From Candidatus Margulisiibacteriota bacterium (GTDB lineage: Bacteria; Margulisbacteria; WOR-1; O2-12-FULL-45-9; XYB2-FULL-48-7): a stretch of DNA of 51,244 nt. The translations under genes were made by a program, and so were the position numbers. Below the pieces are notes generated by a model, which searched no databases, was not told where the DNA came from, and saw only the letters and a list, made by a program, of their open reading frames with translations. The DNA lies in NCBI GenBank assembly GCA_028702315.1, contig JAQVPA010000003.1, positions 1 to 51,244 on the forward strand, in the 5' to 3' direction. Shown piece after piece: positions 9,951 through 29,279 of the stretch. The number at the start of each line of letters is the position of its first letter. The stretch's first letter is position 1.

Positions 9951-10430
9951 CTACCCTCCTTTCCTATCCAGATTGCGGTATTGCGTTGCTTCCGCAATAT
10001 GCCGCGCCTGAATATTATCCGCCCCTTCAAGGTCGGCGATCGTCCGAGCAACTTTGAGAATTCGGTCGTAAGCACGTCCCGAAAGCTGAAGATGAAGAAT
10101 CGCTGATTTGATCAAACTCTCCGCTTCAGTATCAAGCGAACAAAACACCTTCATTTGTTTTGGCGTCATTCTGGAATTACAATGGGTTTCGGTCCCCCGG
10201 AACCGCCGCTGCTGAACCTGCCGCGCCTGTGCGATTCGCTTTCTTATCGCTTTGGATGGCTCCCCATCGGGCTGGGCAGCCAGCTCTTCCTTAGTAAGCC
10301 GCTGAACTTCAACGTGAAGATCGATCCGGTCAAGCAATGGGCCGGAAAGTTTGTTCCAGTAATTTTGGACCCGGTGCGGCGGGCAAGTGCAATTCTTGAT
10401 CGGGTCCATATAATTGCCGCAGGGACACGG
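9951..10430 (-). pseudogene. comM: comM 3' fragment, separated from its 5' part by the integrated element
   Basis: About 158 residues of the C-terminal part of the Mg-chelatase-like AAA+ protein ComM: CPCGNYMDPIKNCTCPPHRVQNYW, then SGPLLDRIDLHVEV, then the helical C-domain (LSGRAYDRILKVARTIADLEG). The frame continues upstream to 10502 through element DNA, with an ATG there, but comM homology begins at 10430. The matching 5' part lies at 29839-30893. ComM is a hexameric helicase that promotes branch migration during natural transformation. The split removes sensor/arginine-finger parts from the ATPase half, so the gene should be inactive while the element is integrated. Confidence 0.92.
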
Positions 10431-11508
10431 CATCGCCATCTTTTCCATGCTTCTGGCGATCCACCTCTGCATACTTGAGGAATTCCCAAGGGTATATTTC
10501 AACCGCTATACTTGTATCGGAGATGTCGATTTTCTTAACTATTATTTTAAGTAACTGGTTTTTAAGCTTTTCATCGTCAATTTGACTTAACAGCTGCTTT
10601 ATTGTCATTGCTTTTTCTAGTACCACGCCTTTATCGGCTTTATAGTTGGCCATATTGTTTAGCTCATCTTCGGCTTTTCTAATGTCATCTTTGATCTTTG
10701 CTTGCTCATCATTACACTTGTTATTTTCTAAATCAAAAGCATCCTTAGTTATTAATTCATCACCATAAGCCCTAAACATGCCTTTCCTTCTTTTTTCTAT
10801 TTCTACTAAGTCCTGGCTACAGTCCCTAATCGCCTTATCAAGTAATTGCCTCTTTGATGTTGTTTCACCTTCGCAAACAGATGAATTTAGCTGCTGTTGA
10901 ACCTCTTCCGTCTCCAGCACCATCGAATTTAATGCCATCATCACATGCTCATCAAAATCCTTTTTATTTACCCTGAATCCACAGGCTTTACATCGGTACT
11001 TTGAGATACCTTTTACTTGGGTATGCCCATACATCTTCATTCCACATTTAGAGCAGAAAAGTAATCCTGAAAGCAGGTAAACACAAGGCTTAGTATGGCG
11101 CTTATAGTTCTTTTTCTTTTCAAGTAAAAGCTCTCTGGCTGACACTAACTGCTTCTCATCAATTAGCCCCAACCTTATTGGGGAAGGAATACTAATTCGT
11201 TCCCATTGTTTCTTATCTTTCTTGCTCTTGCGCTTGTTAACAACCTCGTACATGTTTCTAGCGTAAACCCCTTCAAGCAGTCCTCCCAGACCACCATCAG
11301 CCTGATCCTCTGTCAGTATCATTCTTTTAAGGCTTGTATGGCACAGTTTCTTGTCTCCCATCAGCTTGTTCCGGTTAACCCAATCTACTGTTTGCTTGAT
11401 GTTATCCAGCTCATTAAGTTTAATTAAAACCTGGTTAATCACCTTAAGCTGGTCAGCATTGGGATATAATATCTTCCGTTTTTTATCTTTTTCAAAAGAG
11501 TCAGCCAT
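10330..11508 (-). CDS. Large serine recombinase, recombinase/zinc-ribbon/coiled-coil part
   Basis: 392 aa from the ATG at 11508 (TTG at 11511 possible). It holds the recombinase domain (LYPNADQLKVINQVL), a zinc ribbon (LLFCSKCGMKMYG...YRCKACGF), a coiled coil (about 195-300) and a C-terminal VKKIDISDTSIAVEIYPWEF. It lacks the catalytic Ser domain, which is in the preceding gene overlapping by 8 nt (ATGGCTGA). The pair equals one large serine recombinase, the integrase of this element. The element boundary (core at 10426-10430) lies inside this ORF: its last 32 residues are comM DNA in another frame. In a circular element the frame would instead run into the double-HTH ORF now at 29371-29841. 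Confidence 0.85.
   Translation of the reverse strand: MADSFEKDKKRKILYPNADQLKVINQVLIKLNELDNIKQTVDWVNRNKLMGDKKLCHTSLKRMILTEDQADGGLGGLLEGVYARNMYEVVNKRKSKKDKKQWERISIPSPIRLGLIDEKQLVSARELLLEKKKNYKRHTKPCVYLLSGLLFCSKCGMKMYGHTQVKGISKYRCKACGFRVNKKDFDEHVMMALNSMVLETEEVQQQLNSSVCEGETTSKRQLLDKAIRDCSQDLVEIEKRRKGMFRAYGDELITKDAFDLENNKCNDEQAKIKDDIRKAEDELNNMANYKADKGVVLEKAMTIKQLLSQIDDEKLKNQLLKIIVKKIDISDTSIAVEIYPWEFLKYAEVDRQKHGKDGDAVSLRQLYGPDQELHLPAAPGPKLLEQTFRPIA
10426..10430. other. Left attachment junction of the element (core CACGG on +)
   Basis: The minus strand reads GGCGATG-CCGTG-TCCCTGCGGC: element sequence, shared core, then comM codons for PCG. The same CCGTG occurs at 29839-29843, where comM sequence is on the other side. 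Joining the two comM sides restores the conserved AAMNPCPCGNY motif exactly. Confidence 0.85.
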
Positions 11509-12205
11509 CAATTATTTCCTTTGAATATCCTAGTGTTAGCAGGTCATCTTTATTATATTTATTTAATTCAACCCAATCCCAACCATAAGCAGCCTTATTC
11601 CCTAGCACCTTAAGAGACCTAGCACGGTTAGGGACATTCCTTTTAATGCGGTAGCTGGTTTCATCGCTTTCAAGTTCAGCTAGAGCAGCCATCAACACAT
11701 AAAAGAACTTACCGTAGGCAGAAGTGGTGTCAATCTTCTGGTTGATGGCCACAATATCAACACCAAGCTTCCGCATATAGTCAGCCTCTTCAATCAGGAT
11801 CGAAGTCTTACGAGCAAGCCTTTTAAGCTCTGTAAGCAACAGGATGTCAATGTTATGGTTTTCAACGTCATAACGGTACTTATGGTACTCAGCCTCGTCC
11901 CTGATGTACTTGCCCTGCACTTCAAGCAGTGGGTATTCTTTAACGATCACCCAGTTGTTGAATTTGCAGTAATCTGAGGCAAGCTTGAAATGACTCTGGG
12001 GGGCATCTCTTTCAACAGACTCTTCATGAGATATCCGGTTCCAGAAGCCAACTCGCTTAAATCGCTTACCACACCCTGGGCATTCAACTTGACCATAATC
12101 AAATTCTTTACCACAGACACCACAGGTTAACTTTTTGGGCAATCTGTCTGATAATGACTGGCGCTTATACTCACTAATGAGTTTTTTAACATCTACTTTT
12201 TCCAT
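11501..12205 (-). CDS. Large serine recombinase, catalytic-domain part with N-terminal zinc ribbon
   Basis: 234 aa. It begins with a four-Cys zinc ribbon (CGVCGKEF...CPGCGKRF, about 28-49), then a serine-recombinase catalytic domain. FWNRISHEESVERDAP corresponds to the usual YxRxS nucleophile motif (Ser about residue 58), ILLLTELKRLARKT to the LxRLxR motif, and the domain ends with AALAELESDETSYRIK. The ORF stops at the start of the recombinase domain (NKAAYGWDW). The next ORF continues the homology in a +1-shifted frame, with overlapping stop/start. It may be a genuine two-subunit integrase, a frameshifted gene or a recoding site. An N-terminal zinc ribbon is uncommon in this family. Confidence 0.85.
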   Translation of the reverse strand: MEKVDVKKLISEYKRQSLSDRLPKKLTCGVCGKEFDYGQVECPGCGKRFKRVGFWNRISHEESVERDAPQSHFKLASDYCKFNNWVIVKEYPLLEVQGKYIRDEAEYHKYRYDVENHNIDILLLTELKRLARKTSILIEEADYMRKLGVDIVAINQKIDTTSAYGKFFYVLMAALAELESDETSYRIKRNVPNRARSLKVLGNKAAYGWDWVELNKYNKDDLLTLGYSKEIIDG

Positions 12206-12348
12206 GTCCCTTGCTTCCTAGCCTGATTGATAATTTCGGCAATTCGCCTTACTGTTATTAAACGTTCATAGTTCTTAACATCACTGCTACAACACAGCTT
12301 TACTTCGATAATTTGGCTTTTAGGCATAGGTCTAGTGCCCTAAGAAAA

Positions 12349-12381
12349 TTAATTGTTGCAAAACGTCGTCCTCGGCGTCCT
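12349..12381 (+). repeat. 33-bp inverted repeat, left copy
   Basis: It starts TTAATTGTTGCAAAACGTCG. The exact reverse complement (33/33) is at 29247-29279. The two inward-facing copies enclose 16.9 kb: all element genes except the integrase pair and the double-HTH gene. Confidence 0.75.
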
Positions 12382-12410
12382 TTGCGCTGTTATTGCCCGT
12401 GGTTATTAGG

Positions 12411-14636
12411 CTATTCATCGGTTTTCTTCCGAAAATCACGTGGCTTGTGTTTTAATCCCCTGATAAAACGCCCCTTGCTATTTTTCTCAAGAATTATTCG
12501 GTTAGGGAAAAGAAGCTTTATCCTTCTTGATAGCTGAGCAGTGGTTCTCGCAACGGGGTCATAATCACTTGGATCAGTCCATGTCCCTCTATTGGGATCA
12601 TATAAACCATTAAGTGCACAATAGTTCCCTCTGTAGTCATTGTCAAATACTTCACCGCTGAGAATGGCTGATTTTGGGTCAAAGGAATAATGTTGGTCTA
12701 CAAAGTCTCGTATATGATTAGATGCCAATTGAAGTTCTTCAAGTTTACTCAGATCTGATTCGGTCAGCGCTTTCTCTCTATACAGCCGTTCTGCTGTATC
12801 AACCAGCAGGACGAGCATCCCCTGCTGGAGCTCCCTAATAAGTTCGCTATTAACATCTTTAAGCTCAGGATTGGCTTCAAACCTTGGGTCGGGTGATTTC
12901 TTGATAAATTGATTTGGGAAGTTCACTAGCGTTGTTCTGTTTTTCATCGCTTCGCCAATTCTTCCAAATTGGGGTTCTTCATTCATGCAAAACATCAAAA
13001 CCACAAATACTCTTGCTTTAAATGGGTGGCAATATTTTCTTTCAAACACTTGGCTATCTCCAGATGTAATACTTTTTATGTTTTCTTCGTCATTAATATA
13101 GACCCCATCATTCTCCGTACTGATGTTCATTCGACATCCCACTATTTGTGCGAGACCAAACCTTTCATTCAAGCGCTTATATCTTATATTTGAAACCGCT
13201 TTATTGCCGATAACATATGGGAGAATATTGTCACACAGAATTGACTTCCCGTTATCTGTAGTTCCGTATAAGATGAGATAGCGTTTATAATTGACCCGAT
13301 ATCTGAGCCATGGAAACATGGCAATTGCGCATGCTTCCAGCACATGCCGTTGCTCAGATTCATTTGGTATAGTTAACGAAAGAAATTCCTTGATTTTTGA
13401 AGTAGCATAATCCTTTATGTACGGAATTTGGCTAATAAATGTAAACACTAGACTCTCGTCGTTGAAAAGCTCAACTTTGCCATCCTCATTAACCCTTAGA
13501 AAACCATTCTGAACGGGGAAGCAGTTTTCTGGGTTGACCCTATCAATCGGGGCTATTCTGGAGCTTTCTAATAAGTAAATTATTTCTTCAATAAAGTATC
13601 TTCCGACTAGAGCTTCACATCCATTAATACAGAGGTGCTCCATGACCATGTTTTGGATTTGGAACTCGTTTTCAAAAGGGATGTAAATATTCCCCTCCCG
13701 ATGGTGTAATTGTCCATAAATTGTTTTAAGGCTGAAGGCGTCTATTAGCGATGACGTAATTGTAAGCAAGGGATTGGGGTTTTTCTTTTTTAAGAGCTCA
13801 ATTCCTTGAGTGTCACCTGTTATCTCTATGGCTTGGGGGGGTTCGTACTTTGAAAATAATTCATAAAAAGATTTGATCTTATCCTCACCGGTACTTTCGC
13901 CAAACCAATCCGTCACATCATATCCGGTTTTCTTACCTTCTCCCCAATTGATCGCAAATATTTGGCCGGAGAAATGATGTATTTTCAGCATTTCAATTAT
14001 TTTGTTTGTTCCGTTTCTACCTGCCTGATCGGCATCATAGGCGATATAGAGCTTCTCAAGGGGCAGCAACGGGGTAATAAGCTCGTCATTAACTGTCCCT
14101 GCTCCATAGGGGAAAGACACTGCTTGGATACCATTAGACAATAGCGTTTCGGTGTCCTTCTCTCCTTCTGCAAGCATTATTTCCTTGGCTTTTTTAAGGG
14201 CATCTACATTATATATAGGAAATTGGCCTCCCTGATCCTTTAAGATTTTCCACCCATATGGTTTTCCGATCTCAGGGGCATACTTATACTTTGTGTTAAT
14301 AACAACGCCCCCCACCACGTAGTCGTAACTTGTGATGCGTTCGTCCTCCCCCACATTCTCTTTAATGCCGAGTATTTCCTTTGTCTTTGCTAAAACCCTT
14401 GGAAATTCAATTTTCCGATTTAATCCTTCCATCATTGCCACAAAGTCAAAAATATCCCCCTGACCACATCCTGCAAAGCACTTAAAAATGCAACTTTTGA
14501 GATTAAACGATAGCGATGGATTGCGATCATTATGAACTGGGCACAAAGCTATCTGCTGGCCCTTCCATGGGTCAACTTGTATGCCATAGAATTCAAGAAT
14601 CTTTATAAAATTATCTGGGCTTTTTAAAACATCCAT
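12411..14636 (-). CDS. Primase-helicase (CHC2 zinc finger, TOPRIM, D5-type SF3 helicase)
   Basis: 741 aa. Residues about 30-60 form a CHC2 primase zinc finger (CPVHNDRNPSLSF...FKCFAGCGQGD). A TOPRIM domain follows at about 150-205 (IMLAEGEKDTETL, LYIAYDADQAGRNG). The C-terminal half is a phage/plasmid D5-like helicase with Walker A LILYGTTDNGKS (about 455-467) and later STENDG and VLMFCMNEEP motifs. It should initiate and unwind at the element's own origin, so the element is likely to replicate autonomously when excised. It is the largest element gene and is followed by the integrase. A 13-bp-stem hairpin lies just upstream. Confidence 0.85.
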   Translation of the reverse strand: MDVLKSPDNFIKILEFYGIQVDPWKGQQIALCPVHNDRNPSLSFNLKSCIFKCFAGCGQGDIFDFVAMMEGLNRKIEFPRVLAKTKEILGIKENVGEDERITSYDYVVGGVVINTKYKYAPEIGKPYGWKILKDQGGQFPIYNVDALKKAKEIMLAEGEKDTETLLSNGIQAVSFPYGAGTVNDELITPLLPLEKLYIAYDADQAGRNGTNKIIEMLKIHHFSGQIFAINWGEGKKTGYDVTDWFGESTGEDKIKSFYELFSKYEPPQAIEITGDTQGIELLKKKNPNPLLTITSSLIDAFSLKTIYGQLHHREGNIYIPFENEFQIQNMVMEHLCINGCEALVGRYFIEEIIYLLESSRIAPIDRVNPENCFPVQNGFLRVNEDGKVELFNDESLVFTFISQIPYIKDYATSKIKEFLSLTIPNESEQRHVLEACAIAMFPWLRYRVNYKRYLILYGTTDNGKSILCDNILPYVIGNKAVSNIRYKRLNERFGLAQIVGCRMNISTENDGVYINDEENIKSITSGDSQVFERKYCHPFKARVFVVLMFCMNEEPQFGRIGEAMKNRTTLVNFPNQFIKKSPDPRFEANPELKDVNSELIRELQQGMLVLLVDTAERLYREKALTESDLSKLEELQLASNHIRDFVDQHYSFDPKSAILSGEVFDNDYRGNYCALNGLYDPNRGTWTDPSDYDPVARTTAQLSRRIKLLFPNRIILEKNSKGRFIRGLKHKPRDFRKKTDE

Positions 14637-14664
14637 TTCAGGTGCTCCTCCTATTTATATCTTC

Positions 14665-14696
14665 GATCGGGGTGGAGTCACAGCTCCACCCCGATC
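14665..14696 (-). terminator. Strong hairpin before the primase gene
   Basis: GATCGGGGTGGAG and CTCCACCCCGATC form a perfect 13-bp stem with a 6-nt loop (TCACAG or its complement). It lies between the stop of the small upstream gene and the primase start. No T-run follows on the minus strand, so it could be an attenuator, processing site or origin element instead of a terminator. Confidence 0.5.
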
Positions 14697-14705
14697 AAAC
14701 CCGAC

Positions 14706-14999
14706 TCAACAGATTTTTTCAATCGAATAGCGGGTATTTATACCTTTGCCCCTCCTAATGATTTGAACCATATCTCCTATTTGGAGTTTGGCAAATGCAC
14801 GAGCCGCTGCCTGCGCACTTGAGGCCCACTGCCTTTCCTTCCCATTTACTTGCAATTTGAACATTGCGATTTCTTTCGATGAGTCGAAGTTCGATGTGTT
14901 GATTTCACACCCGAGGTATGTGGCCTGCACAGGTACTCCGTCCTCTAGAACCAAGAATCGCGCATTGTCTTCAATATATTGCTCTAAACTCTTGCCCAT
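14706..14999 (-). CDS. Small hypothetical protein, possibly OB-fold
   Basis: 97 aa from the ATG at 14999, chosen for its strong SD (GGAGGTGA, about 9 nt upstream). Beta-rich pattern: VPVQATYLGCEI, IAMFKLQVNGKERQW and IGDMVQIIRRGKGINTRYSIEKI. The last segment resembles an OB-type strand that closes on a nucleic acid, but no family is recognised. It sits directly upstream of the primase-helicase, so a replication accessory role is an inference from position only. Confidence 0.6.
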   Translation of the reverse strand: MGKSLEQYIEDNARFLVLEDGVPVQATYLGCEINTSNFDSSKEIAMFKLQVNGKERQWASSAQAAARAFAKLQIGDMVQIIRRGKGINTRYSIEKIC

Positions 15000-15033
15000 A
15001 GCTTTTTCACCTCCTTCCTTATTTTGATCCTCC

Positions 15034-15228
15034 CTAACACGCCATACACATAACAACCTTACTAGCCAGCCTAAGTAATGATTTGCTCATCGCCTCGTAA
15101 TCATCTATAACTTGAGTAAGGCCGTCTGTGTAATCCGTTCCCCTGTCATTAGGGCTCACTTGTGCTTTCCCATATTTAAGGATGAACAGGAGCTTTCGCC
15201 GGTCAAATATTGGATTGTCATAAAACAT
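15034..15228 (-). CDS. Small hypothetical protein
   Basis: 64 aa from the ATG at 15228, preceded by AAGGGGGTGG. It begins MFYDNPIFDRRKLLFILKYG and ends with SLLRLASKVVMCMAC. No family is recognised. It precedes the 97-aa gene and the primase on the same strand and is probably in the same transcript. Confidence 0.5.
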   Translation of the reverse strand: MFYDNPIFDRRKLLFILKYGKAQVSPNDRGTDYTDGLTQVIDDYEAMSKSLLRLASKVVMCMAC

Positions 15229-15348
15229 TCTAACCACCCCCTTGAAGCATTTGTTTTACGCTAAGGCCAGATAACAAAAAAGCCAAAGCGATTATGCTAT
15301 GGCTATTATGGCAAAGCGGGATTTTGAGGTATTACGTGTAAGGAATCC

Positions 15349-16266
15349 TTAACTATTGCGAAGCTTCTTTATCCTACTTCTTGCTGTTCGAACAGCTTCA
15401 GGAGTCATTTTCATCTTTTTAGCTATTTCTCGATCAGTATCCTTATTAGAAATGTATTTGTGCTTAATAGGATCAAACCTCACATTAGTGTCCTTCCTAA
15501 GGGCTTCTATCTTTAGATCCCGTAAAAGCTCGTCTTTTCTCTTCCATCTTTTAGTTTCAGGCAAGCCAGGAAACATTGCCTTAAATCCATCCCTCCTGTG
15601 CACATCGTAACCTGAGCAATAAATATCCTTTTTAGTCGGCTCATCACCTACTATTTCAGAGAATGCCTTAATACGATCATTTGTTATATTCCTCTTATGT
15701 AGATAGATTACCGGGCGAAACCCAACCTCTTCATATTGAATGCCATATTTCTTTACATGTACGCTTATTTCCACTCTCATCTCAGTCATCATTCCTGTTT
15801 TGCGCAATAATTCACTAAGCCCTGTCATTATCTCGTTCACAGCAAAAGATGAAAAAGAAGGATAGCGGCATAGGTGTTTTATAATCCAATTCATATAGAA
15901 TCCTTCTTTATCGCTCGAATTTAGATATTTTTCAATGTGCCGTTTCCCAAATATTATTAAATGATTGACAAAAGGGATCCATCCCTGATGAAGGCTATAT
16001 TTATACAAGACAGGATCAATGTTATCTATTCGGGTATCGTGGAATATAATATCATCATCTATTTTTCTCTTTGCTTTAAAATTACGGATCATAAACCGAT
16101 AGGCGCTCACATCATTCCCGCAACCTTTTTCGGGGATGTGATTCTTCACTCTTAATTGTTTTATGTCAGCCATAAAAGGCTTATTAATAATAAGCAACTT
16201 CATTTTTTGGCTGATTTTGCCTTCAAGCCTATTAGTTGATTTGCTCGATTTTGCTCTTCTGTTCAT
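15349..16266 (-). CDS. Hypothetical protein with C-terminal HTH-like segment
   Basis: 305 aa, basic. The middle (about 60-200) alternates helices and strands (SLHQGWIPFVNHLIIFGKRH, MRVEISVHVKKYG). The last 35 residues (NKDTDREIAKKMKMTPEAVRTARSRIKKL) read as a sigma-70-region-4-like or GerE-type helix-turn-helix. It may be a DNA-binding replication initiator or regulator, but the body matches nothing I know. The start ATG at 16266 lacks a strong SD; a Met at codon 22 is an alternative. Confidence 0.6.
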   Translation of the reverse strand: MNRRAKSSKSTNRLEGKISQKMKLLIINKPFMADIKQLRVKNHIPEKGCGNDVSAYRFMIRNFKAKRKIDDDIIFHDTRIDNIDPVLYKYSLHQGWIPFVNHLIIFGKRHIEKYLNSSDKEGFYMNWIIKHLCRYPSFSSFAVNEIMTGLSELLRKTGMMTEMRVEISVHVKKYGIQYEEVGFRPVIYLHKRNITNDRIKAFSEIVGDEPTKKDIYCSGYDVHRRDGFKAMFPGLPETKRWKRKDELLRDLKIEALRKDTNVRFDPIKHKYISNKDTDREIAKKMKMTPEAVRTARSRIKKLRNS

Positions 16267-16421
16267 ATGAATATCTTTTCGCTATCATTATAACTCTTCT
16301 CCCCATCAATCTTCTACATACTCACCTCCCCTACCATTTACAGTGTAAACAATCGGCCCTATTTTGACCGGAGTATGAACACGATAAAGAAAACGCTAAA
16401 TAAGGGGGTGAGGGTTTTTTA

Positions 16422-16955
16422 TTACTTAGTTTTAGACCATCGCAGATAATAACCGGATACTTTTCTTTTTCTAGAATCTTTGCGTCCTCGTGGTCTACCT
16501 AACACTTTTCCCTGTCTAACGGCTCTATGGAGACCTGCCATAGTTCTAGAAACGATCAATTCTCGCTCATATTCCGCAAAGACACCTAACATCTGCCAAA
16601 ACATCTTTCCTTCAGGAGTTTGTGTATTGATGTTCTGTGTTACAGAAATAAATTCAACCCTTTGGTTTTTAAATTCTTCAAACAAATTCAGTAAGTGCTG
16701 TAACGATCTTCCTATCCTATCTAGCTTATACACAACAACACAACTAACCTGATTTCCCCTCATATCGGTTAAGAGCCGTTCAAATTCTGGCCGCTTATCA
16801 TCCTTACCACTAAAACCACTGTCTATGTATTCATCGTTTATTTTGTACTTCATCCTGGCACAATAATCTCTTAACGCCATTAATTGAGTTTCAATTGTCT
16901 GGTCTGCCGTAGAAGTTCTTGCGTATAAGACTACGTCCTTCCCTTCCTGAGTCAT
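16422..16955 (-). CDS. Small serine recombinase (resolvase/invertase family)
   Basis: 177 aa. Catalytic motifs are clear: VVLYARTSTADQ (nucleophile Ser about residue 15), YIDSGFSGKDDKRPEFERLL, VVVYKLDRIGRSLQHLL and GVFAEYERELIVSRTMAGLHRA. The C-terminus is a short basic GRPRGRKDSRKRK tail with little room for a full HTH. Enzymes of this type resolve dimers or invert segments. A candidate substrate is the pair of 33-bp inverted repeats at 12349 and 29247, though no direct link is visible. An SD (AGGAGG) precedes the ATG. Confidence 0.9.
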   Translation of the reverse strand: MTQEGKDVVLYARTSTADQTIETQLMALRDYCARMKYKINDEYIDSGFSGKDDKRPEFERLLTDMRGNQVSCVVVYKLDRIGRSLQHLLNLFEEFKNQRVEFISVTQNINTQTPEGKMFWQMLGVFAEYERELIVSRTMAGLHRAVRQGKVLGRPRGRKDSRKRKVSGYYLRWSKTK

Positions 16956-16981
16956 GTTTCCTCCTAATTCGCCATTATGTA

Positions 16982-17329
16982 TTACGATTTTTCTTCCGCT
17001 TTTGACGATGCATTATAAAACTTACTATCCAACATCTGCATATTATCAATAACCACTTCGGTCGTTGATCTCTTAACTCCTTCCTTGCTTTCATAGCTTC
17101 TTATCTGAATTCTTCCTTCTACAGCTACTAGCTTCCCCTTTTTCAAATACTCCCCACATATCTTAGCCAGGCCTCCAAAAGCCACACAATTAATAAATTC
17201 AGCAGAATTGCTGCTACTGCGATTAATTGCTAATCTAAAATGAGCGACTGCCGTTTCATTCTGTGTATATCGAACCTCGGGGTCAGCCACAAGTCTCCCG
17301 GCCAAGATTGATCTATTTAACCCACCCAT
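16982..17329 (-). CDS. ssb: Single-stranded DNA-binding protein
   Basis: 115 aa. MGGLNRSILAGRLVADPEVRYT, AHFRLAINR, INCVAFGGLAKICGEYLKKGKLVAVEGRIQIRSYE and VVIDNMQMLD are the standard SSB OB-fold blocks. The acidic C-terminal tail ends EEKS instead of the usual DDxPF tip, which suggests loss of standard protein partners or element-specific use. It starts next to the stop of the upstream gene, with SD AGGAGGTGAG. Confidence 0.92.
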   Translation of the reverse strand: MGGLNRSILAGRLVADPEVRYTQNETAVAHFRLAINRSSSNSAEFINCVAFGGLAKICGEYLKKGKLVAVEGRIQIRSYESKEGVKRSTTEVVIDNMQMLDSKFYNASSKAEEKS

Positions 17330-17542
17330 TTAACTCACCTCCTTTTCTATGCTCCCTGGCAACTTCTTCTTCTCGCTATCATATCCTTCCAATCTTTTTT
17401 GTAATAAGAGCTTATCTCTCCTAAGGTTCGAGATAAAGTCTTCAATAACTGCCAGCCGGATTACCAAGATATTTCTATAATTCGCCTCATTTTCAAGTAT
17501 TTCCTTATTTATCTGATGATACCCAATCCGGCTATTATTCAT
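17330..17542 (-). CDS. Helical hypothetical protein; frame open further upstream
   Basis: 70 aa from ATG 17542, mostly helical and charged (IGYHQINKEILENEANYRN, LRRDKLLLQKRLEGYDSEKKK). The same frame is open upstream to about 17700 and reads as plausible protein (RIVYLGGVAYFNGKHKISNK, KIVYGRWKNKSDEF) but has no ATG, GTG or TTG there. A rare start codon (ATT or ATC), coupling to the DUF2958 gene, or a frameshift could explain this. Its stop adjoins the ssb start. Confidence 0.5.
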   Translation of the reverse strand: MNNSRIGYHQINKEILENEANYRNILVIRLAVIEDFISNLRRDKLLLQKRLEGYDSEKKKLPGSIEKEVS

Positions 17543-17706
17543 CTTTTCTGATCGCCTGATCTTATTGATGATGAATTCATCACTTTTATTCTTCCATCTC
17601 CCATAAACGATCTTTCTAATTTGCTTATTTGATATTTTGTGCTTGCCATTAAAATAAGCAACGCCTCCAAGATAAACAATTCTTTTGTCTTCATGATGCT
17701 TTTTGA

Positions 17707-18108
17707 TTACATCATTCCCCTAGCATCCATCACTTCTTTTAAGGTTTTATCTTTGAAAAATAAATCTCTTTCTATGCCTAAGCCGAATCTACCCTTAAAC
17801 TCTTGGAGCTCTTCAAGGCTAAATGTGCCTAATTCAGCCATCTCGGGATCTCCTAGATTGGCATATCCAAAGAATATCCTATCAACTGGGTCATACTCAG
17901 TAGCAAACCATGTGCCTACGCCTGTAGGATTGAAGAATTTCGCAATTACCTTTACCTCTTCAGCGGTTTTATAGCTTGTATCACCTTGTTTTTTGAATTC
18001 TTCAATAATTTCGCTAGTCAATAGTTCCATATTTTCAATTACAGCAATGCCCCTGCTCCATAATGGATTATGCCCTTTTTCACTTTGCTCTAATTTATAT
18101 TCCGGCAT
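17707..18108 (-). CDS. DUF2958 domain protein
   Basis: 133 aa from the ATG at 18108; an in-frame GTG/ATG region extends to 18255 but runs into repeat DNA. NPLWSRGIAVIENM, VIAKFFNPTGVGTWFATEYDPVDRIFFGYANLGDPEMAELGTFSLEELQEF and GIERDLFF match the DUF2958 family, small proteins common on plasmids and integrative elements, of unknown function. The upstream non-coding side is the first long direct repeat (18239-18422). Confidence 0.75.
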   Translation of the reverse strand: MPEYKLEQSEKGHNPLWSRGIAVIENMELLTSEIIEEFKKQGDTSYKTAEEVKVIAKFFNPTGVGTWFATEYDPVDRIFFGYANLGDPEMAELGTFSLEELQEFKGRFGLGIERDLFFKDKTLKEVMDARGMM

Positions 18109-18238
18109 CAATGTTAGTCGCCGGTTATTATTTCTTTTTAGGCGACTTGCCGCCAAGGATAAGAAATAACGAAATAAAAGTACCCATAAACAATTAAACG
18201 TTGTATTGTCAGCTGATAACTGAAGGCAAAAGCCATTC

Positions 18239-18422
18239 CCCCCTTCGCAACACACCTAGCTTATCTTTAAAAGATAAGAAAATGGCTTCTAAAGCGTTTT
18301 CAGATGTTTTCCGGCCCCTTGCCCCGCTTGATCTTTAAAAACTCTTCTTAAGCTGTTCTTAGAGGCCTTTATTTTAACCATCATCACATTTACTTGTTTG
18401 ATCTATGGACACGATAGTATCC
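18239..18422 (+). repeat. Long direct repeat, copy 1 (promoter region)
   Basis: About 184 bp, clearly similar (roughly four bases in five by eye) to 19379-19571, in the same orientation. Shared blocks include CCCCTTCGCAAC, GGCCCCTTGCCCCGCTTG, ACTCTTCTTAAGC, CCTTTATTTTAACCA and CATCACATTTACTTGTTT, ending in the palindromic operator GGACACGATAGTATCC. Each copy precedes one unknown gene, so it looks like a duplicated promoter or leader module. Confidence 0.75.
18407..18422. promoter_or_regulatory. Operator-like palindrome GGACACGATAGTATCC
   Basis: A 16-bp imperfect palindrome fitting GGAYACNATNGTRTCC, 60 nt before the 18483 start. The same sequence recurs at 19556-19571, and a close relative lies at 23716-23731 before the XRE gene. 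Confidence 0.65.
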
Positions 18423-18482
18423 TTTGTGCTATATTTTTACCCCACTATTGAAAGGCTATATCCCAATAAAGGGGTTGATAAT

Positions 18483-19430
18483 ATGGGAGAAGGAAATGTT
18501 TATTTTATCCGCCATAAGCAGGATGATGATTTTTCAAAGGGCGAGATAAATCGCTTGAAAGAGAAAAATAAAATAGCCATCTTCTTCGACAACAAACCTC
18601 TTTCTGAAGTTACTATTGGGAATACAGAGATCCATGAAAAGTATTTTTCTGACAAAAAGGCAGTCACGGTAAAATATAGGTCGGCATTAAACTGCCTGCT
18701 TAAGATAGCAAAAGACGGGGGGATGGTTGTAGCTGAATATAATGATGAGTCGGAAGTTCTAATCGGCCAGGTTAAACCCGGAACCAGCCTGGAGGCATCA
18801 GGAAAAATCGAAGTCACCCTTCAATTAACTAAAACGAAAACATTAAAATACAGCGACTATCCAGTTGCACTTGCCGTAAGGCCACCTTATGGCACAATCT
18901 GTAAGCCACTGGCACCATTTTTTCAAACCATAATCCCGATGATATATAATAATGCCGAAAGTAGCATAAATATTAATCGGTCTCTCCTACATCCTAAAAT
19001 GCTCGAACAGATGTGCGTGGAATATTTGAGAATAAAAGGCGTGAACGATCAGATTTTGAAATATTGCATTCTAAGGCCAGGAAAAAGCCTCGCAATTATC
19101 GATATCGCAGGGATATCTAGAAGTGGTAAGCCTATCTACGCTCAAGTTAAGGCCGATAAAATAAAGCCTGAAGCTCATGCTTGTTTTATTAAGTTTGCCT
19201 CAAAGAATTTCAAGGATGCCCTAAATGTTATTTTTTCAGAAAGTGATTCTACCTTGAAAAAACACTCTGAGATAACTTATGTAAATGTCGATGATGTTTT
19301 CAATTATTTTAAAACAAATGACGAAGAGATGATAAGAAGGATGATTGGGTTTCCTAAACTGGCTACAACAAAACCCTTCCCCCTTCGCAACGAGCGTAGT
19401 TTATCTTCAAAAGGCAAGCAAATGACTTAG
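18483..19430 (+). CDS. Unknown protein, possible PUA-like reader plus Mrr-like nuclease domain
   Basis: 315 aa from ATG 18483 (AAGGGG SD); the in-frame ATG at 18405 runs through the operator and is unlikely to be the start. The N-terminal part (VYFIRHKQDDDF, MVVAEYNDESEVLIGQVKPG) has a reader-domain feel. The C-terminal part (PKMLEQMCVEYLR, then IIDIAGISRSGKPIYAQVK) carries an E...D...QxK pattern as in Mrr-type PD-(D/E)XK nucleases. That assignment is my reading of motifs and is unproven. The last 19 residues are encoded by the second direct repeat. The shared operator ties it to the gene at 19638 and the XRE regulator, suggesting a controlled defence or toxin role. Confidence 0.55.
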   Translation: MGEGNVYFIRHKQDDDFSKGEINRLKEKNKIAIFFDNKPLSEVTIGNTEIHEKYFSDKKAVTVKYRSALNCLLKIAKDGGMVVAEYNDESEVLIGQVKPGTSLEASGKIEVTLQLTKTKTLKYSDYPVALAVRPPYGTICKPLAPFFQTIIPMIYNNAESSININRSLLHPKMLEQMCVEYLRIKGVNDQILKYCILRPGKSLAIIDIAGISRSGKPIYAQVKADKIKPEAHACFIKFASKNFKDALNVIFSESDSTLKKHSEITYVNVDDVFNYFKTNDEEMIRRMIGFPKLATTKPFPLRNERSLSSKGKQMT

Positions 19431-19571
19431 GGAGCGTTTTAAGATGTTTTTCGGCCCCTTGCCCCGCTTGCCCCTTAAACACTCTTCTTAAGCCGTTCTT
19501 AGACGCCTTTATTTTAACCACCATCACATTTACTTGTTTTTCTATGTTTTTCTATGGACACGATAGTATCC
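19379..19571 (+). repeat. Long direct repeat, copy 2 (promoter region)
   Basis: Counterpart of 18239-18422. It overlaps the 3' end of the preceding gene, has a small internal TCTATGTTTT duplication, and ends in GGACACGATAGTATCC at 19556-19571, 67 nt before the next start. Confidence 0.75.
19556..19571. promoter_or_regulatory. Operator-like palindrome GGACACGATAGTATCC, second copy
   Basis: Identical to the site at 18407-18422 and placed similarly relative to the next gene. Confidence 0.65.
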
Positions 19572-19637
19572 CTCATGCTATTCTGCTCTTCACTACAGAT
19601 ACCATCTTTTAAGTTATTTTTCTAAGGAGGCCGTTTT

Positions 19638-20429
19638 ATGAATGTAGATGAGATTATCGATGTGATCGGCTATTACGGCAATATAAGCTCCAAAATATGT
19701 TTTATAGCAATTGAGCCTGGTGGACTAGCCATGCCGGGCATCTCAACAAATGATTTATACGAAAACGATAAAACAAGTGGCCCAAGAAAAATAAGGTTTT
19801 TCATTGATAAAAACGAATACAACGCTTCCTCATTCAAAGAATACTTTAAAGCCATACATAACAACATAGATTTTTATAAACTGATCGATGGCATAGATAA
19901 TACCGTAAAAGAAAAGATTGAAAACGAAGACTATGAATATTACTTTAAAAAGCCGGCATCATATTGGAGCCTTGCATCAATGCTCTTACGGGAGATCAGT
20001 GGGAGAAAGGTGTATCATGGCCAGCATAGCTTTCAATTTAATGTTTATCCTCTCCCGAAAAAGTCTACTTTATCAAACATTGAAAAAGAATACGGAATCC
20101 CAGTAAAAGAATATCATGAGAAATCGCTACAAGTCAGGCCAAAAAAGATTGCGGAGTACCTATCTAAAAGAGCCAGAGATGAAGAAATGCTTATAATATG
20201 TTCCGGTGATGAATATAAAATCTTAAAGCCCTTTATTGAGAAAGACGAAAAGCCAATATCGATAGAAGGGATCCCAGATAAAATGCGTGCATATAAGTAT
20301 AACTATTATAAAGCTGTGGTTTATGTCCTGCCATTTTTGAGCCGATGGAAAGGGATATCAAACGGCATCCTAAAGAACATCGGTCAAGACATCAGAAATC
20401 AGGTTAAAAACATCAATAGTTATTTTTAG
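19638..20429 (+). CDS. Unknown protein, faintly uracil-DNA-glycosylase-like
   Basis: 263 aa with a strong SD (AAGGAGG). Segments ICFIAIEPGG (about 20-29), FQFNVYPLPKK (about 131-141), MLIICSGDEYKILKPFI and VVYVLPFLSRWKGISNG are laid out like the motifs of the UDG superfamily (GxxPG, an Asn, a terminal PxxS). The key residues do not match well, so this is only a pointer. No other family is recognised. It has the same duplicated promoter module and operator as the gene before it, so the two are probably co-regulated parts of one system. Confidence 0.55.
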   Translation: MNVDEIIDVIGYYGNISSKICFIAIEPGGLAMPGISTNDLYENDKTSGPRKIRFFIDKNEYNASSFKEYFKAIHNNIDFYKLIDGIDNTVKEKIENEDYEYYFKKPASYWSLASMLLREISGRKVYHGQHSFQFNVYPLPKKSTLSNIEKEYGIPVKEYHEKSLQVRPKKIAEYLSKRARDEEMLIICSGDEYKILKPFIEKDEKPISIEGIPDKMRAYKYNYYKAVVYVLPFLSRWKGISNGILKNIGQDIRNQVKNINSYF

Positions 20430-20479
20430 AATAGGGTTATCCACCACTAACAAAGATAAATAGAATAGAAAGGGCTTAA

Positions 20480-20836
20480 TTAACCATCTAATATGGGGCA
20501 AGCTTTTTCATAATGACGATCTGCCGTTAGTTTATATTTTATCAGGTTAAAAGCCTTTGTGATTTTATCAACCATCTTCTTATTTTTTATGACTGCCTTA
20601 GATGACATTATCTTGAATTGCTTGGTTATAAAATTATAAACCACCCTACCCCTGGGATAATAAACATAGTCATGCTCTATGCCGTGTTTAACTGAATATT
20701 TCTCCCAGAAGGGATAATGGCCGGAATGATTAGCCCAACAACCTATCTTGTCCTCACCCCGATCGTAAGGGCAAGTGTCAAGAATTAACTTGCCATCATC
20801 TTTTATCCAGAAAATGCCGATTAAAGGGGCTTTCAT
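20480..20836 (-). CDS. Hypothetical protein
   Basis: 118 aa. It begins MKAPLIGIFWIKDDGKLILDTCPYDRGED and contains GHYPFWEKYSVKHGIEHDYVYYPRGRVVYNFITKQF, an aromatic-rich pattern that looks like a small alpha/beta domain. No family is named. It overlaps the upstream gene by 4 nt (ATGA type), indicating coupling. Function unknown. Confidence 0.6.
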   Translation of the reverse strand: MKAPLIGIFWIKDDGKLILDTCPYDRGEDKIGCWANHSGHYPFWEKYSVKHGIEHDYVYYPRGRVVYNFITKQFKIMSSKAVIKNKKMVDKITKAFNLIKYKLTADRHYEKACPILDG

Positions 20837-21033
20837 GCGTTGCCATCACCAATCGATTTTAACTGCTTAATTCGCTCTTTGATTTCCGCTGTCATCCTTT
20901 TATGCTCCAAATAAGCATCAACTATTATTTTTTCCATACTACGCATAGAGTTTTTGAGCGACCCGATCAATGTGGCTATATTCTCGTCATCCTTGGATAA
21001 TGCCATCTCAATATTGCTCAACTCTTCATTCAT
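20833..21033 (-). CDS. Small coiled-coil hypothetical protein
   Basis: 66 aa, almost entirely helical (MNEELSNIEMALSKDDENIATLIG, YLEHKRMTAEIKERIKQLKS). It lies between the ATPase gene and the 118-aa gene, and its last codons overlap the latter's start. Possibly an accessory subunit; no family known. Confidence 0.5.
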   Translation of the reverse strand: MNEELSNIEMALSKDDENIATLIGSLKNSMRSMEKIIVDAYLEHKRMTAEIKERIKQLKSIGDGNA

Positions 21034-21047
21034 CTCTATCCCCCTAC

Positions 21048-21857
21048 TCAGGCGTAATCTTTAAGCATCCATGTTTTTCTATCAATGCCTAACGTAAGCA
21101 CACCGGATCCTCTTCTAACATTTTTTAGTATTTCTACGACAACATTCCGCTGATCTTCTTCGTCTCTATTTATGTCCAATAAACATATAACCTCTGCTAA
21201 TGGGGCACAAGCAGCCACTTCTCTCGGGAGCTCAACGACGTCACCTGAATCCAACGCATTGGCTGTAATAATAACAGCTGCATTAAATTTCTTTGCAAGT
21301 CTCTTAATGCCCTTAATATATTTCTTTAGCAGTTCACATCTCACTTCTTCATAATTGCCCTGCTTTGGATAATATTTATACACATAGTCGATTGAGTCAA
21401 TTATCAAAAGCCATGGTGGGAGCTTCCTTGTGTACATTTCCACTGGGTCTAAACCCTTTAACTCTTCTGCCGGCTGACGGATAGCATATTGCTCAATTAT
21501 TTGCTCCATTTCACCTGGAGCTTCATCCTCTATCCCAGGCATTTTAACTCCCTCTATTGCCACCCCTTCTATATGTTCAATATAAAGTGGGCCATTGATA
21601 TTAAGCCCTGCTAATCGCTTTGCTATACAACCTGCTGGAGATGAAGTTAAATATAAGACCTTTATGTTTTTCATCGCACAAGATAAAGCGAATGCTGTAC
21701 AGAAGGCAGTCTTTCCAACTGCTGGAGGAGCAGATACTATCATCATCTCTCCGGGCGCTATCCCATCAACTGCATCATCATAATCTTTTAAGCCTGATAG
21801 TAATACTTCGGTTTTTGTTTTAACCTTTTCATCCTCTAATATCTCTTGCACCTTCAT
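21048..21857 (-). CDS. DnaB/RecA-like ATPase
   Basis: 269 aa. Walker A is MIVSAPPAVGKTAF (about 39-52), Walker B LLIIDSIDYVYKYYP, and a C-terminal block runs DINRDEEDQRNVVVEILKNVRRG. This layout matches the RecA-like core of DnaB helicases (GEMMIVSAPPAVGKT...), without the DnaB N-terminal domain. It could be the replicative helicase or a helicase loader partner of the element primase. A RadA/KaiC-type role cannot be excluded. Confidence 0.75.
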   Translation of the reverse strand: MKVQEILEDEKVKTKTEVLLSGLKDYDDAVDGIAPGEMMIVSAPPAVGKTAFCTAFALSCAMKNIKVLYLTSSPAGCIAKRLAGLNINGPLYIEHIEGVAIEGVKMPGIEDEAPGEMEQIIEQYAIRQPAEELKGLDPVEMYTRKLPPWLLIIDSIDYVYKYYPKQGNYEEVRCELLKKYIKGIKRLAKKFNAAVIITANALDSGDVVELPREVAACAPLAEVICLLDINRDEEDQRNVVVEILKNVRRGSGVLTLGIDRKTWMLKDYA

Positions 21858-21869
21858 TTATGCCTCCCC

Positions 21870-22361
21870 TTACAACTCAATGTCAGATATCTGCTCATCA
21901 GAGATGTTATGCTTTTTACAAAAACATCTCATTTCCTCAGTATCTGACAATAAAAGCGCCTTTAAAAGGTGAGATGGGTCAACAACTCCTTTTGGCAATG
22001 ATAAAGATATAGCCTTATTAACAACCTCTTTCATGCCAGGAGAAAACGGCAGTCCTTCTTTAATACTTGGCAAGCTTAGCTCTCCATCAAGTAAATACTT
22101 ATCAATTTTAAGCCCTACATCCTTTATGCTTTGATTAAGCTCGTCATTTATATTGTTTTCTTGAACCAAAGCACATAGCACATGGTATTCACTTATCTCA
22201 TCCGCCAGAAGTATTTTTGCAATTGCCCCTCCATTTTCAAGCGCATTAACAGCACTAATTTCATACTTCGGCCTTACACTTGTCTTTCCGTACGAGAGGA
22301 TACTTATTTCACAAAGGTCCTTATCCATGCTATATTCGAATAATGGCTTCATGTCATTCAT
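21870..22361 (-). CDS. Clp-N (R domain)-like protein without ATPase
   Basis: 163 aa from ATG 22361 (TTG 22370 and ATG 22352 are alternatives); the start overlaps the upstream stop. EISEYHVLCALVQE, then LPFSPGMKEVVNKAISLSLPKGVVDPSHLLKALLL, follow the double repeat of the Clp R domain, the adaptor-docking N-domain of ClpA/ClpC. No AAA+ domain follows. A free-standing R domain could bind adaptors or substrates and so interfere with host Clp proteolysis; that is an inference. It precedes the ATPase gene in the same direction. Confidence 0.6.
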   Translation of the reverse strand: MNDMKPLFEYSMDKDLCEISILSYGKTSVRPKYEISAVNALENGGAIAKILLADEISEYHVLCALVQENNINDELNQSIKDVGLKIDKYLLDGELSLPSIKEGLPFSPGMKEVVNKAISLSLPKGVVDPSHLLKALLLSDTEEMRCFCKKHNISDEQISDIEL

Positions 22362-22626
22362 TCCATACAATATCAGTCATATTCAAAGTGTCTTTAGAAT
22401 CACCATTTGGAAGCATGCTAAACAGCACATGCTTCTTATATTGGAATACGATCCCTTCCTTGGCATAAGTTAAGCCCAATAAATAATCCTTTAGCTTCTT
22501 TGCTTCAGAAGGGTCTTTGATCTTTTCAAAAGAGACAAGCAAGTATTTATGCTTAACATATTCATCTCGTAGGGTTTTAATGTTTTTATATTCGTCTGGA
22601 TAATGAAGTGTTTTAATTTCAGGCAC
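22354..22626 (-). CDS. SepF-like domain protein
   Basis: 90 aa from GTG 22626 (SD AAGGGGGTG; longer upstream starts lack one). YLLVSFEKIKDPSEAKKLKDYLLGLTYAKEGIVFQYKKHVLFSMLPNG resembles the SepF core (a beta-alpha-beta fold with DFLxGxxYAxxG and FLxxP motifs). SepF anchors FtsZ to the membrane in Gram-positives, cyanobacteria and archaea. Here the amphipathic N-terminal helix is short or absent. It may act on host division or copy a fold for another purpose. Similarity is by eye only. Confidence 0.55.
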   Translation of the reverse strand: MPEIKTLHYPDEYKNIKTLRDEYVKHKYLLVSFEKIKDPSEAKKLKDYLLGLTYAKEGIVFQYKKHVLFSMLPNGDSKDTLNMTDIVWNE

Positions 22627-22704
22627 AAGGCACCCCCTTACCATATATAGATATAGACAACACAATGGACACAAACCCCAAATATTTTGACGTTTAGACA
22701 ATAA

Positions 22705-22899
22705 CTAAATTGATGTTTTGTCGCTACTCCCGCATTTCACACAACTACCATGTTTGAATCCCAGGTTTGTGCATGACGAGCTACCTTCTGCTCCGTATTC
22801 GCATCCAACGTTTCCACACTTCTTACATTTGTACAACGAACGCAAACAAGCATCATTAGATGACCCACTACCTTTTCTTTGCCCTTTACATGAGCTCAT
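22705..22899 (-). CDS. Small zinc-ribbon protein
   Basis: 64 aa with four conserved pairs of Cys or lone Cys (CKKCGNVGC, SSCTNLGF, SCVKCGSS), a pattern that fits a small zinc-binding ribbon. It has a strong SD (AGGAGGTGAG). Similar short proteins occur in mobile elements; function unknown. Confidence 0.65.
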   Translation of the reverse strand: MSSCKGQRKGSGSSNDACLRSLYKCKKCGNVGCEYGAEGSSSCTNLGFKHGSCVKCGSSDKTSI

Positions 22900-22936
22900 T
22901 TTCTCACCTCCTTTTTAATATCATTTTTTATTATAA

Positions 22937-23308
22937 TTAAGGAGCCAATGTATTTATACAAGTATAGTCATTAACATCTAATCTTATTAAACGTGATTTT
23001 TTATCAAAAAAGGCATAAATAGTATCTCCATTCTTCTCATAAGTCTTATAAGTTCCTATAGGCACATCTTTATAATTTAGAAGAATTTGAGATTTAACTG
23101 GTTTCCCGAAATAAGTTGTAAATTCTTTTTCAGGCATAAAATCTTCTAATTTATACATTACAACCCATCCTGTTTTACTAGAAATAGCCCCCACTTGCAT
23201 AATTTTATACATGGTAGAAACATCAATAGAATGCGCATAGCATTTAGCAGATAACCCTACACCACTCAATATCAACAACAAAATCAAATATGATAATAAC
23301 TTTTTCAT
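22937..23308 (-). CDS. Secreted hypothetical protein (Sec signal peptide)
   Basis: 123 aa from ATG 23308 (SD AGGAGG). The N-terminus MKKLLSYLILLLILSGVGLSAKCYA is a clear signal peptide with cleavage near CYA/HS. The mature part is about 98 residues and beta-rich (WVVMYKLEDFMPEKEF, DGDTIYAFF-type strands). No family is recognised. Likely periplasmic. It follows a coiled-coil gene whose stop lies 4 nt upstream, and probably shares its transcript. Confidence 0.65.
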   Translation of the reverse strand: MKKLLSYLILLLILSGVGLSAKCYAHSIDVSTMYKIMQVGAISSKTGWVVMYKLEDFMPEKEFTTYFGKPVKSQILLNYKDVPIGTYKTYEKNGDTIYAFFDKKSRLIRLDVNDYTCINTLAP

Positions 23309-23312
23309 TTTT

Positions 23313-23657
23313 CTACCTCCTATTTTCAAGCTCTTTGATATAAGCATTCAACGAATCCATTTTTAAATACAGCTCGAATAAATCATTGATCTGACGGTCT
23401 AGATTTATATTATTCATATCCCTTGAAATATCCCTTGCAAGATTTTCAATCGTCTCAATCTTTTTTACTACCTGGCCCGATCCCGGCACCTGAAATAGGC
23501 CTAAAATGCTTAATGCCCCTCTTATTGACTTACTTTCTTCAACAAGCTCATTTACAGGCTGATTGAAGTTCTTTAGGTAATTCTTGACCGTTGTTAGCCC
23601 GTCCATTACAGACTTAATCCTTTCTTTGCTTATATAACGGGAGTCAAAGATGTCCAC
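23313..23657 (-). CDS. Coiled-coil hypothetical protein
   Basis: 114 aa, helical throughout (LTTVKNYLKNFNQPVNEL, VVKKIETIENLARDISRDM, INDLFELYLKMDSL). The GTG start at 23657 has SD GGAGGC. It is divergent from the XRE gene, and the intergenic region holds two operator-like sites, so the regulator may control both directions. Confidence 0.55.
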   Translation of the reverse strand: MDIFDSRYISKERIKSVMDGLTTVKNYLKNFNQPVNELVEESKSIRGALSILGLFQVPGSGQVVKKIETIENLARDISRDMNNINLDRQINDLFELYLKMDSLNAYIKELENRR

Positions 23658-23680
23658 TTATATTGCCTCCATTGGCATAA

Positions 23681-23731
23681 GGATACTATCGGTTGTGTTG
23701 TTTATTATAGGCCACGGATACAATAGTGTCC
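23681..23731. promoter_or_regulatory. Operator pair between divergent genes
   Basis: GGATACTATCGG (23681, one good half-site, degenerate other half) and GGATACAATAGTGTCC (23716-23731, full site). The second ends exactly at the XRE ATG (23732), consistent with a leaderless, self-regulated controller gene. Confidence 0.6.
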
Positions 23732-23986
23732 ATGGTGAAAGCAGCATCTTTCTATCAACCAAATAAAGACCTCCTCACCGCCCTTTCCCAAGAGCTTAAA
23801 TCTATCCGTAAAGCTAAGAAGCTAACCATTGAACAGCTATCAGAGCTATCTGGTCTGCATGAGAAATATCTGCAAACGATCGAAAGAGACCATAGAAACA
23901 TGTCCATCTCCGTTTTTGTGCAGATTGCAAAGGCACTCAAGGTTTCACCATCCAAATTGCTTGAAAAAGCCTTGCGATCTAAATAA
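23732..23986 (+). CDS. XRE-family regulator of restriction controller (C protein) type
   Basis: 84 aa from ATG 23732. LKSIRKAKKLTIEQLSELSGLHEKYLQTIERDHRNMSISVFVQIAKALKVSPSKLLEKAL is a single HTH_3 domain whose SGLHxxYLxxIERxxRNMS block matches restriction-modification controller proteins. It lacks an SD but has an operator immediately before the ATG, like leaderless C genes. Sites of the same palindrome lie before the 18483 and 19638 genes. The R-M genes start about 0.7 kb downstream but do not show a clear copy of the site. Its 3' end overlaps the convergent 69-aa gene. Confidence 0.85.
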   Translation: MVKAASFYQPNKDLLTALSQELKSIRKAKKLTIEQLSELSGLHEKYLQTIERDHRNMSISVFVQIAKALKVSPSKLLEKALRSK

Positions 23987-24188
23987 CTCCATTTATTGTT
24001 TCTATCATGCTTTGAAGGTTAACTTTCAATACTTGGAGCTTTTTTAGCTTGGGCTTGGCCAGGCCATTTTTATTTAGCTTTGCCTCAACCTTATCAAGGT
24101 AATCGTATAGAGCGAAATGAAGAATCCCCACATCATCATAATTTAATTCGATACTTACACTCATATTATCAACCTTTAATATCTTCAT
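23979..24188 (-). CDS. Small hypothetical protein
   Basis: 69 aa from ATG 24188 (SD GGAGGTG). MKILKVDNMSVSIELNYDDVGILHFALYDYLDKVEAKLNK looks like a small alpha/beta fold. No family recognised. It converges on and overlaps the XRE gene by 8 nt. Confidence 0.5.
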   Translation of the reverse strand: MKILKVDNMSVSIELNYDDVGILHFALYDYLDKVEAKLNKNGLAKPKLKKLQVLKVNLQSMIETINGVI

Positions 24189-24194
24189 AAGCAC

Positions 24195-28056: not shown

Positions 28057-28293
28057 ATTCTAATATATTATCTCACAATTCCTAATATTTAAGTATACTA
28101 TGAGCGTAGTCATAATTTCCTTGAACCCTTATTTTAAAACGTAATATCTAATTCAGCAAACTCGTTTCATTCCCCAAAAACCCTCATTCAGCCCTTATTA
28201 GATAATGATTCGGGTTATAAGTCGTTTATTATAGATTCTTGGCAGCTGGCCGAGGGGGGACAAAAAGACTTTTTACAAAGCTAAATATGGTGG

Positions 28294-29226: not shown

Positions 29227-29246
29227 TACTGACATTATACCAGAGC

Positions 29247-29279
29247 AGGACGCCGAGGACGACGTTTTGCAACAATTAA
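29247..29279 (-). repeat. 33-bp inverted repeat, right copy
   Basis: Exact reverse complement of 12349-12381. It lies just upstream of the lipoprotein promoter, so inversion between the copies would exchange the DNA upstream of that promoter. Confidence 0.75.

Follow-up and report, generated by a model that had tools for sequence, protein, structure and literature searches.

Two overlapping reading frames of a large serine recombinase

In the stretch of DNA analysed here (51,244 nt, referred to as the window) the minus strand contains two adjoining open reading frames with similarity to large serine recombinases. Where features are said to recur in G019, this refers to a Candidatus Saganbacteria MAG from Lac Pavin (recombinase contig JAPLLA010000050.1). 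The features of the recombinase region are:

11501–12205, minus strand: ORF1, 234 aa, N-terminal CxxC/CxxC motif and serine-recombinase catalytic domain (Pfam Resolvase, 2.7e-17; phrog_95 positions 88–255)
10427–11508, minus strand: element-coded part of ORF2, DNA-binding part of a large serine recombinase with zinc ribbon and long helices (Zn_ribbon_recom, 3.4e-8; phrog_95 positions 254–563)
11501–11508, minus strand: overlap of the ORF2 start with the ORF1 stop, 8 nt, ATGGCTGA, identical in G019
11517–11522, minus strand: AAAGGA, Shine-Dalgarno-like, 8 nt upstream of the ORF2 ATG, identical in G019
12193–12327, minus strand: 44-aa ORF overlapping the ORF1 start by 13 nt, no family match, stop codon lost in G019

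ORF1 and ORF2 are read in different frames, and neither contains a premature stop in the window. The frame of ORF2 starts with the ATG at 11508 and stays open to 10330, with its last stretch running through DNA of the neighboring gene comM. A preliminary description of this locus had proposed two overlapping ORFs with a Shine-Dalgarno sequence ahead of the second one, and both proposals were borne out. It had been confined to 11490–12205, which holds ORF1 and the overlap but misses the rest of ORF2 and the edge of the surrounding element at 10426/10427. Sites of the Shine-Dalgarno type precede 17 of the 43 ATG-started ORFs of at least 150 aa in the window (mechanical ORFs, not curated genes), compared with a fraction of 0.069 of random positions.

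The proposed distribution of domains was confirmed for the catalytic domain (Resolvase) in ORF1 and for Zn_ribbon_recom in ORF2, while the zinc ribbon assigned to the N-terminus of ORF1 is visible as a CxxC...CxxC motif that is reported by no Pfam family. ORF1 also contains an R-x-S motif (R57-I58-S59), which we take to be residues of the catalytic motif. For ORF2, Pfam did not report the Recombinase family (PF07508), but phrog_95 is covered from position 254 to 563. As the matches of the two ORFs abut on this single integrase profile (651 positions), ORF1 and ORF2 appear to represent one integrase chain that is cut between the catalytic and the recombinase domains. The same profile is matched without a break (positions 64–562) by five proteins of single-chain relatives. 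One single-chain relative (G130), which carries both the Recombinase and the zinc ribbon domain, aligns across ORF1 and ORF2, and this alignment places the break in a linker much longer than that of the single chain. Six distinct PDB sequences match the joined ORF1-ORF2 protein, all of them in the catalytic part, which left no solved structure of a large recombinase on which to locate the break. AlphaFold2 models of ORF1 and ORF2 based on two-row alignments were too poor to use (mean pLDDT 35.7 and 47.0). Judged from the sequence, it is plausible that ORF1 and ORF2 form one two-subunit enzyme.

Programmed recoding had also been considered for this junction, namely a +1 shift near GGC TGA C which would join ORF1 and ORF2 into a single chain like that of the relatives. 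The existence of these single-chain relatives and the conservation of the junction to the base are in line with such a shift, as is the TGAC, a weak stop context also known from prfB. A TAA, however, closes the ORF2 frame just before the TTG at 11511 and leaves only about three codons in which the shift could take place. No recognized slippery codon pair is found within them, and the spacing of the Shine-Dalgarno-like site fits the ORF2 ATG and not the TGA. Programmed recoding is thus unsupported and is regarded as very unlikely.

An element inserted in comM and its attachment site

The ORF adjoining ORF2 (9951–10502) corresponds to the C-terminal half of ComM (YifB), the product of a gene for the uptake of DNA. 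The recombinase lies at the end of an element inserted into this gene, an insertion which, like the putative attachment site within ORF2, goes beyond what the preliminary description had seen. The element and its ends comprise:

10427–29840, no strand assigned: whole integrated element, ~19.4 kb (19413 nt between the two cores)
9951–10427, minus strand: C-terminal half of comM (yifB), Mg_chelatase_C 1.5e-33
29839–30893, minus strand: N-terminal half of comM (yifB), 100% match to residues 1–353 of the joined ComM
10426–10427, minus strand: crossover dinucleotide TG on the recombinase side, in the shared CCGTG at 10426–10430
29839–29840, minus strand: crossover dinucleotide TG on the far side, in the shared CCGTG at 29839–29843
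29371–29841, minus strand: tandem XRE (HTH_3, HTH_19), in frame with ORF2 after joining of the ends; the core GTG is a possible start when integrated
10428–10452, minus strand: left arm of the putative attP, inside ORF2, 16/25 dyad matches with the right arm
29814–29838, minus strand: right arm of the putative attP, inside the XRE reading frame, forming the dyad with the left arm

Past the edge at 10426/10427, ORF2 continues into comM DNA in a frame other than that of comM. Joining the flanks in silico at CCGTG yields one uninterrupted ComM of 509 aa, and the insertion point is the TG of its MNPC codons. ComM is present in 65 of 74 genomes of the phylum and is interrupted at the insertion point in the own genome and in G019 (pieces 1–353 and 327/328–509). 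Two-piece comM genes of four further genomes (G004, G008, G038, G045) look like close-lying pieces or contig ends. An interruption close to the MNPC codons also affects comM of G253 (L060, G253:C57, ~10650; L061, G253:C140, ~9680), where a recombinase-XRE gene lies ~10.7 kb from the comM junction.

Several further genes of the element could be assigned. A second, small serine recombinase of the resolvase/invertase type is encoded at 16422–16955 (minus strand; Resolvase 6.2e-46), and at 28294–29235 (minus strand) a protein resembling the metallo-beta-lactamase fold, which matches defence models (LmuA 1.6e-17, and others). At 24693–28056 the element carries what resembles a type II restriction-modification system as cargo, with two DNA methyltransferases and a weak match to an endonuclease; the cargo of the G019 element differs and appears by eye to be another restriction system. 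Given the primase/helicase-like protein at 12411–14636 and the DnaB-like protein at 21048–21857 (both minus strand), the element may replicate as a circle, in a satellite- or plasmid-like manner.

When the two ends of the element are joined, ORF2 continues in frame into the tandem XRE domain, with a total length of 516 aa. On its own, this helix-turn-helix part matches phage repressor families. The ORF2-XRE protein aligns through both domains with a fused recombinase-XRE of G130, the match being stronger with the far end (1.3e-18) than without it (3.7e-13). The ends of the G019 element are located on two contigs; the second comM half is on C17, adjacent to an XRE frame that is a homologue of the window XRE. 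Joining the two ends again gives an ORF2-XRE of 516 aa and restores ComM. The element of G233, which has the reverse orientation within comM, separates the comM halves by ~36.5 kb: next to the N-terminal half lies its single-chain recombinase, encoded on the other strand, and next to the C-terminal half a tandem XRE frame. Here the join produces an open frame of 691 aa and likewise a restored ComM. On the viral contig L081, the recombinase end of such an arrangement is seen. G130 carries an XRE half beside the C-terminal half of comM on one contig and an intact fused recombinase-XRE gene on another.

A dyad scan with arms of 25+25 nt, without preset position within a 300-nt stretch and with 500 shuffles as control, found its best dyad precisely at the joined ends of the elements of the window (16/25; fraction of shuffles reaching it 0.01), G019 (19/25; 0) and G233 (18/25; 0), each time with TG or CA at the center. 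The intact gene of G130 has a dyad at the same linker (center CA, 19/25, 0 of 500 shuffles). The scan gave no significant dyad for the unjoined loci of G292 (0.24), G374 (0.95), G388 and G418. It was likewise negative for L080 and L081, both viral contigs, and in the fused recombinase-XRE genes of G253 and G108 the linker contained nothing resembling an attP dyad. At attB, no dyad was seen. A short attL/attR core and a dyad-symmetric attP are hallmarks of large serine recombinases; both are seen in the window, as the TG in CCGTG and the dyad at the join. As the ends join in frame at the dyad, the predicted attP lies within the recombinase gene. On the sequence evidence this arrangement, a putative attP inside a recombinase-XRE gene, is present in four cases of the clade and is absent from the more distant fusions that were scanned.

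It could be objected that the in-frame join arises by chance and that the XRE is merely a regulator gene near the far end. Element ends often have XRE genes nearby, two frames agree by chance in one of three cases, and the XRE ORF could start by itself from the GTG at the core. Nevertheless, the frames agree in all three joined elements with the best dyad at the join each time, and G130 provides a natural fusion with the attP inside. A chance join, judged unlikely from the dyad scan at the join, is considered highly improbable.

The split in close and distant relatives

A search with ORF1 against 143 relatives gave 14 matches at 1e-8 (own genome included), of which only the one in G019 was close. 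With ORF2, only the own genome and G019 were matched among the 74 genomes of the phylum, and a separate contig scan returned one relative, the same G019 contig. In G019, the overlap, the Shine-Dalgarno-like site and the sequence downstream are identical to the window. Amino acid identity between both elements is 96% in the aligned catalytic part and 91% in ORF2. Codon comparison gave 108 identical, 53 synonymous and 6 non-synonymous codons for the catalytic part and 232, 80 and 31, respectively, for ORF2, whereas the linker beside the attP has no clear synonymous excess (4 synonymous and 11 non-synonymous codons). The overlap lies within the longest stretch of identical DNA shared by both elements (43 nt, 11492–11534). 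Around it 1 of 55 nt differs, compared with 57 of 491 nt for one coding part and 126 of 990 nt for the other. As three further identical runs of at least 30 nt exist, the low divergence at the overlap is suggestive only.

The preliminary description had left open whether the split was a recent frameshift, a sequencing error or a true two-subunit integrase. Because G019 shares the junction and both halves exhibit a synonymous excess, a frameshift or sequencing error restricted to the window genome was rejected. The two-subunit option is favored by the same features, as the split, the overlap and the Shine-Dalgarno-like site are all retained in G019 and the changes in both halves are mostly synonymous.

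In more distant relatives the recombinase is a single chain. When an alignment of the window and G130 sequences was compared with 383 genomes, seven matched at 1e-45 (the own genome, G019, G130, G233, G253, G292 and G374). In the phylum of G233 (40 genomes) G233, G388 and G418 matched at 1e-60, and in that of G374 (three genomes) G374 was the sole match. Among viral contigs, L080 and L081 matched; of the remaining viral scans, three gave no match and two gave one match each, and a 19-nt junction pattern matched three contigs. ORF1 searches of phages and plasmids yielded 45 and 639 records, respectively, all of them weak and below 60% identity. ORF2 gave no phage and one plasmid match, and the ORF2-XRE query one plasmid match. 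All eight cases with both halves on one contig (G130, G233, G253, G374, G388, G418, L080 and L081) are single-chain; G292, truncated by the end of its contig, was not counted. The two-gene split, known from two elements (window and G019), is therefore derived and specific to the Saganbacteria lineage. The comparison of homologues had two outcomes, with the split kept in G019 but missing further away; its absence there, like the frame-breaking deletions in ORF1 of G019, tells against the picture given by the preliminary description.

In G388 (L072, 6394–8043), the recombinase ends in a host gene other than comM with a different junction sequence, and the comM of this host is intact, which represents retargeting within the clade.

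The same distribution could also result from decay, with ORF1 and ORF2 being remnants of a dead single-chain recombinase that are kept as the element became fixed in comM. The single chain of all distant relatives fits this explanation, as does comM being left interrupted by both elements. Furthermore, ORF1 of G019 as assembled contains two frame-breaking deletions, one of 82 nt in the zinc-ribbon region and one of 29 nt after YG; the catalytic frame is open for 167 codons and no usual start codon was seen ahead of the serine. These deletions, either real or an assembly fault, may be a warning of decay. However, the synonymous excess (53:6 and 80:31) accumulated after the two elements had parted, when the split was already present. 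In addition, the window ORFs are free of stops, the overlap and the Shine-Dalgarno-like site are conserved and the linker around the break is extended. Decay as the origin of the split is therefore considered unlikely. The two-ORF recombinase predates this genome but occurs in one lineage only, and in the sister element it is partly decaying.

Known systems and a proposed mode of action

The element recombinase shares with other large serine recombinases (phrog_95; Resolvase, Recombinase and Zn_ribbon_recom) the catalytic serine domain, the zinc ribbon and the long helical C-terminal part, as well as a putative directional attP/attB pair with a TG core. It differs in the putative attP inside the coding sequence and in a further domain beyond this attP. 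These recombinases are, moreover, one polypeptide, whereas the window and G019 encode two. In mycobacteriophages such as BPs and Brujita (integration-dependent immunity) the attP also lies inside a coding gene and integration changes the protein, but this gene encodes the repressor and not, as in the window, the recombinase. In the open-licence literature, no account was found of an attP inside a serine-recombinase gene, nor of a recombinase naturally divided into two genes at this position.

According to PMC8371274, archaeal suicidal (SSV-type) tyrosine integrases carry the attP within the integrase gene, which is cut by integration, and are exclusive to archaea. An attP inside the integrase gene, putative in the window, is common to both. 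The SSV-type enzymes are, however, archaeal tyrosine recombinases (Phage_integr_3), while the window encodes a bacterial serine recombinase for which Pfam gives Resolvase and Zn_ribbon_recom only. SSV-type integration also parts the catalytic from the DNA-binding portion, whereas here both remain together at 10.4–12.2 kb and the XRE alone is located on the other side. In its predicted anatomy, the element recombinase is a bacterial serine-recombinase counterpart of the archaeal suicidal integrases. The layout furthermore resembles that of phage WO sr1WO which, as described in PMC9203015 and PMC5062602, integrates in the magnesium chelatase gene of Wolbachia, has HTH_XRE regulators at its 3′ end and an attP running from a terminal gene to the recombinase. 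Insertion into a magnesium chelatase gene and an XRE at the far end are both found in the window and G019, a likeness of layout alone, apart from any kinship with WO; sr1WO is described with a single recombinase gene, unlike the two ORFs of the window. Competence genes are stated to be enriched among the targets of large serine recombinases (PMC10083194).

Taken together, ORF1 and ORF2 probably constitute a two-subunit integration module of the comM element in a Saganbacteria-type bacterium, with a chain split by evolution and an attP inside ORF2 ahead of the XRE. The ancestral enzyme, a large serine recombinase ending in a tandem XRE domain, would have been divided twice. The first cut, an evolutionary one in the extended linker after the catalytic domain, would have created ORF1 (catalytic) and ORF2 (DNA-binding), both presumably translated from one message, most likely coupled by termination-reinitiation at ATGGCTGA, and acting together as one enzyme. 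The second cut would occur at the attP within ORF2, between the recombinase part and the XRE. In the free circle, ORF2 would read through the attP and the products would be ORF1 and ORF2-XRE (516 aa). Integration at the TG of the MNPC codons would leave the XRE at the far end, where it may start from the GTG at the core, and ORF2 would end in ~32 residues of out-of-frame comM tail.

With the attP inside its own gene, the enzyme would be trimmed of the XRE by integration. As the catalytic and DNA-binding parts stay whole, the recombinase could, unlike the archaeal suicidal enzymes, still excise the element. Loss of the XRE may alter the enzyme, for example by holding it in an integrated state, or may free the XRE as a separate regulator; the freed XRE might repress the element, or its loss might set the direction of recombination. 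A self-editing bacterial serine integrase is proposed here tentatively: it would act as a recombinase-XRE in the free element and as a trimmed recombinase beside a separate XRE after integration, with the DNA rearrangement setting both direction and regulation. In Saganbacteria, the enzyme would in addition occur naturally as two subunits, with the catalytic domain on a protein of its own. The anatomy with the attP inside the gene is better supported and more general than the two-subunit mode of action.

If true, a large serine recombinase that naturally consists of two parts would offer a ready point of control over an enzyme class that is widely used in genome engineering. Of greater weight is the putative attP inside a bacterial serine-recombinase gene, which contradicts the statement in PMC8371274 that self-cutting recombinases are exclusive to archaea. 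It suggests a simple route by which integration would change the enzyme and free a regulator, and control of direction by domain loss becomes directly testable.
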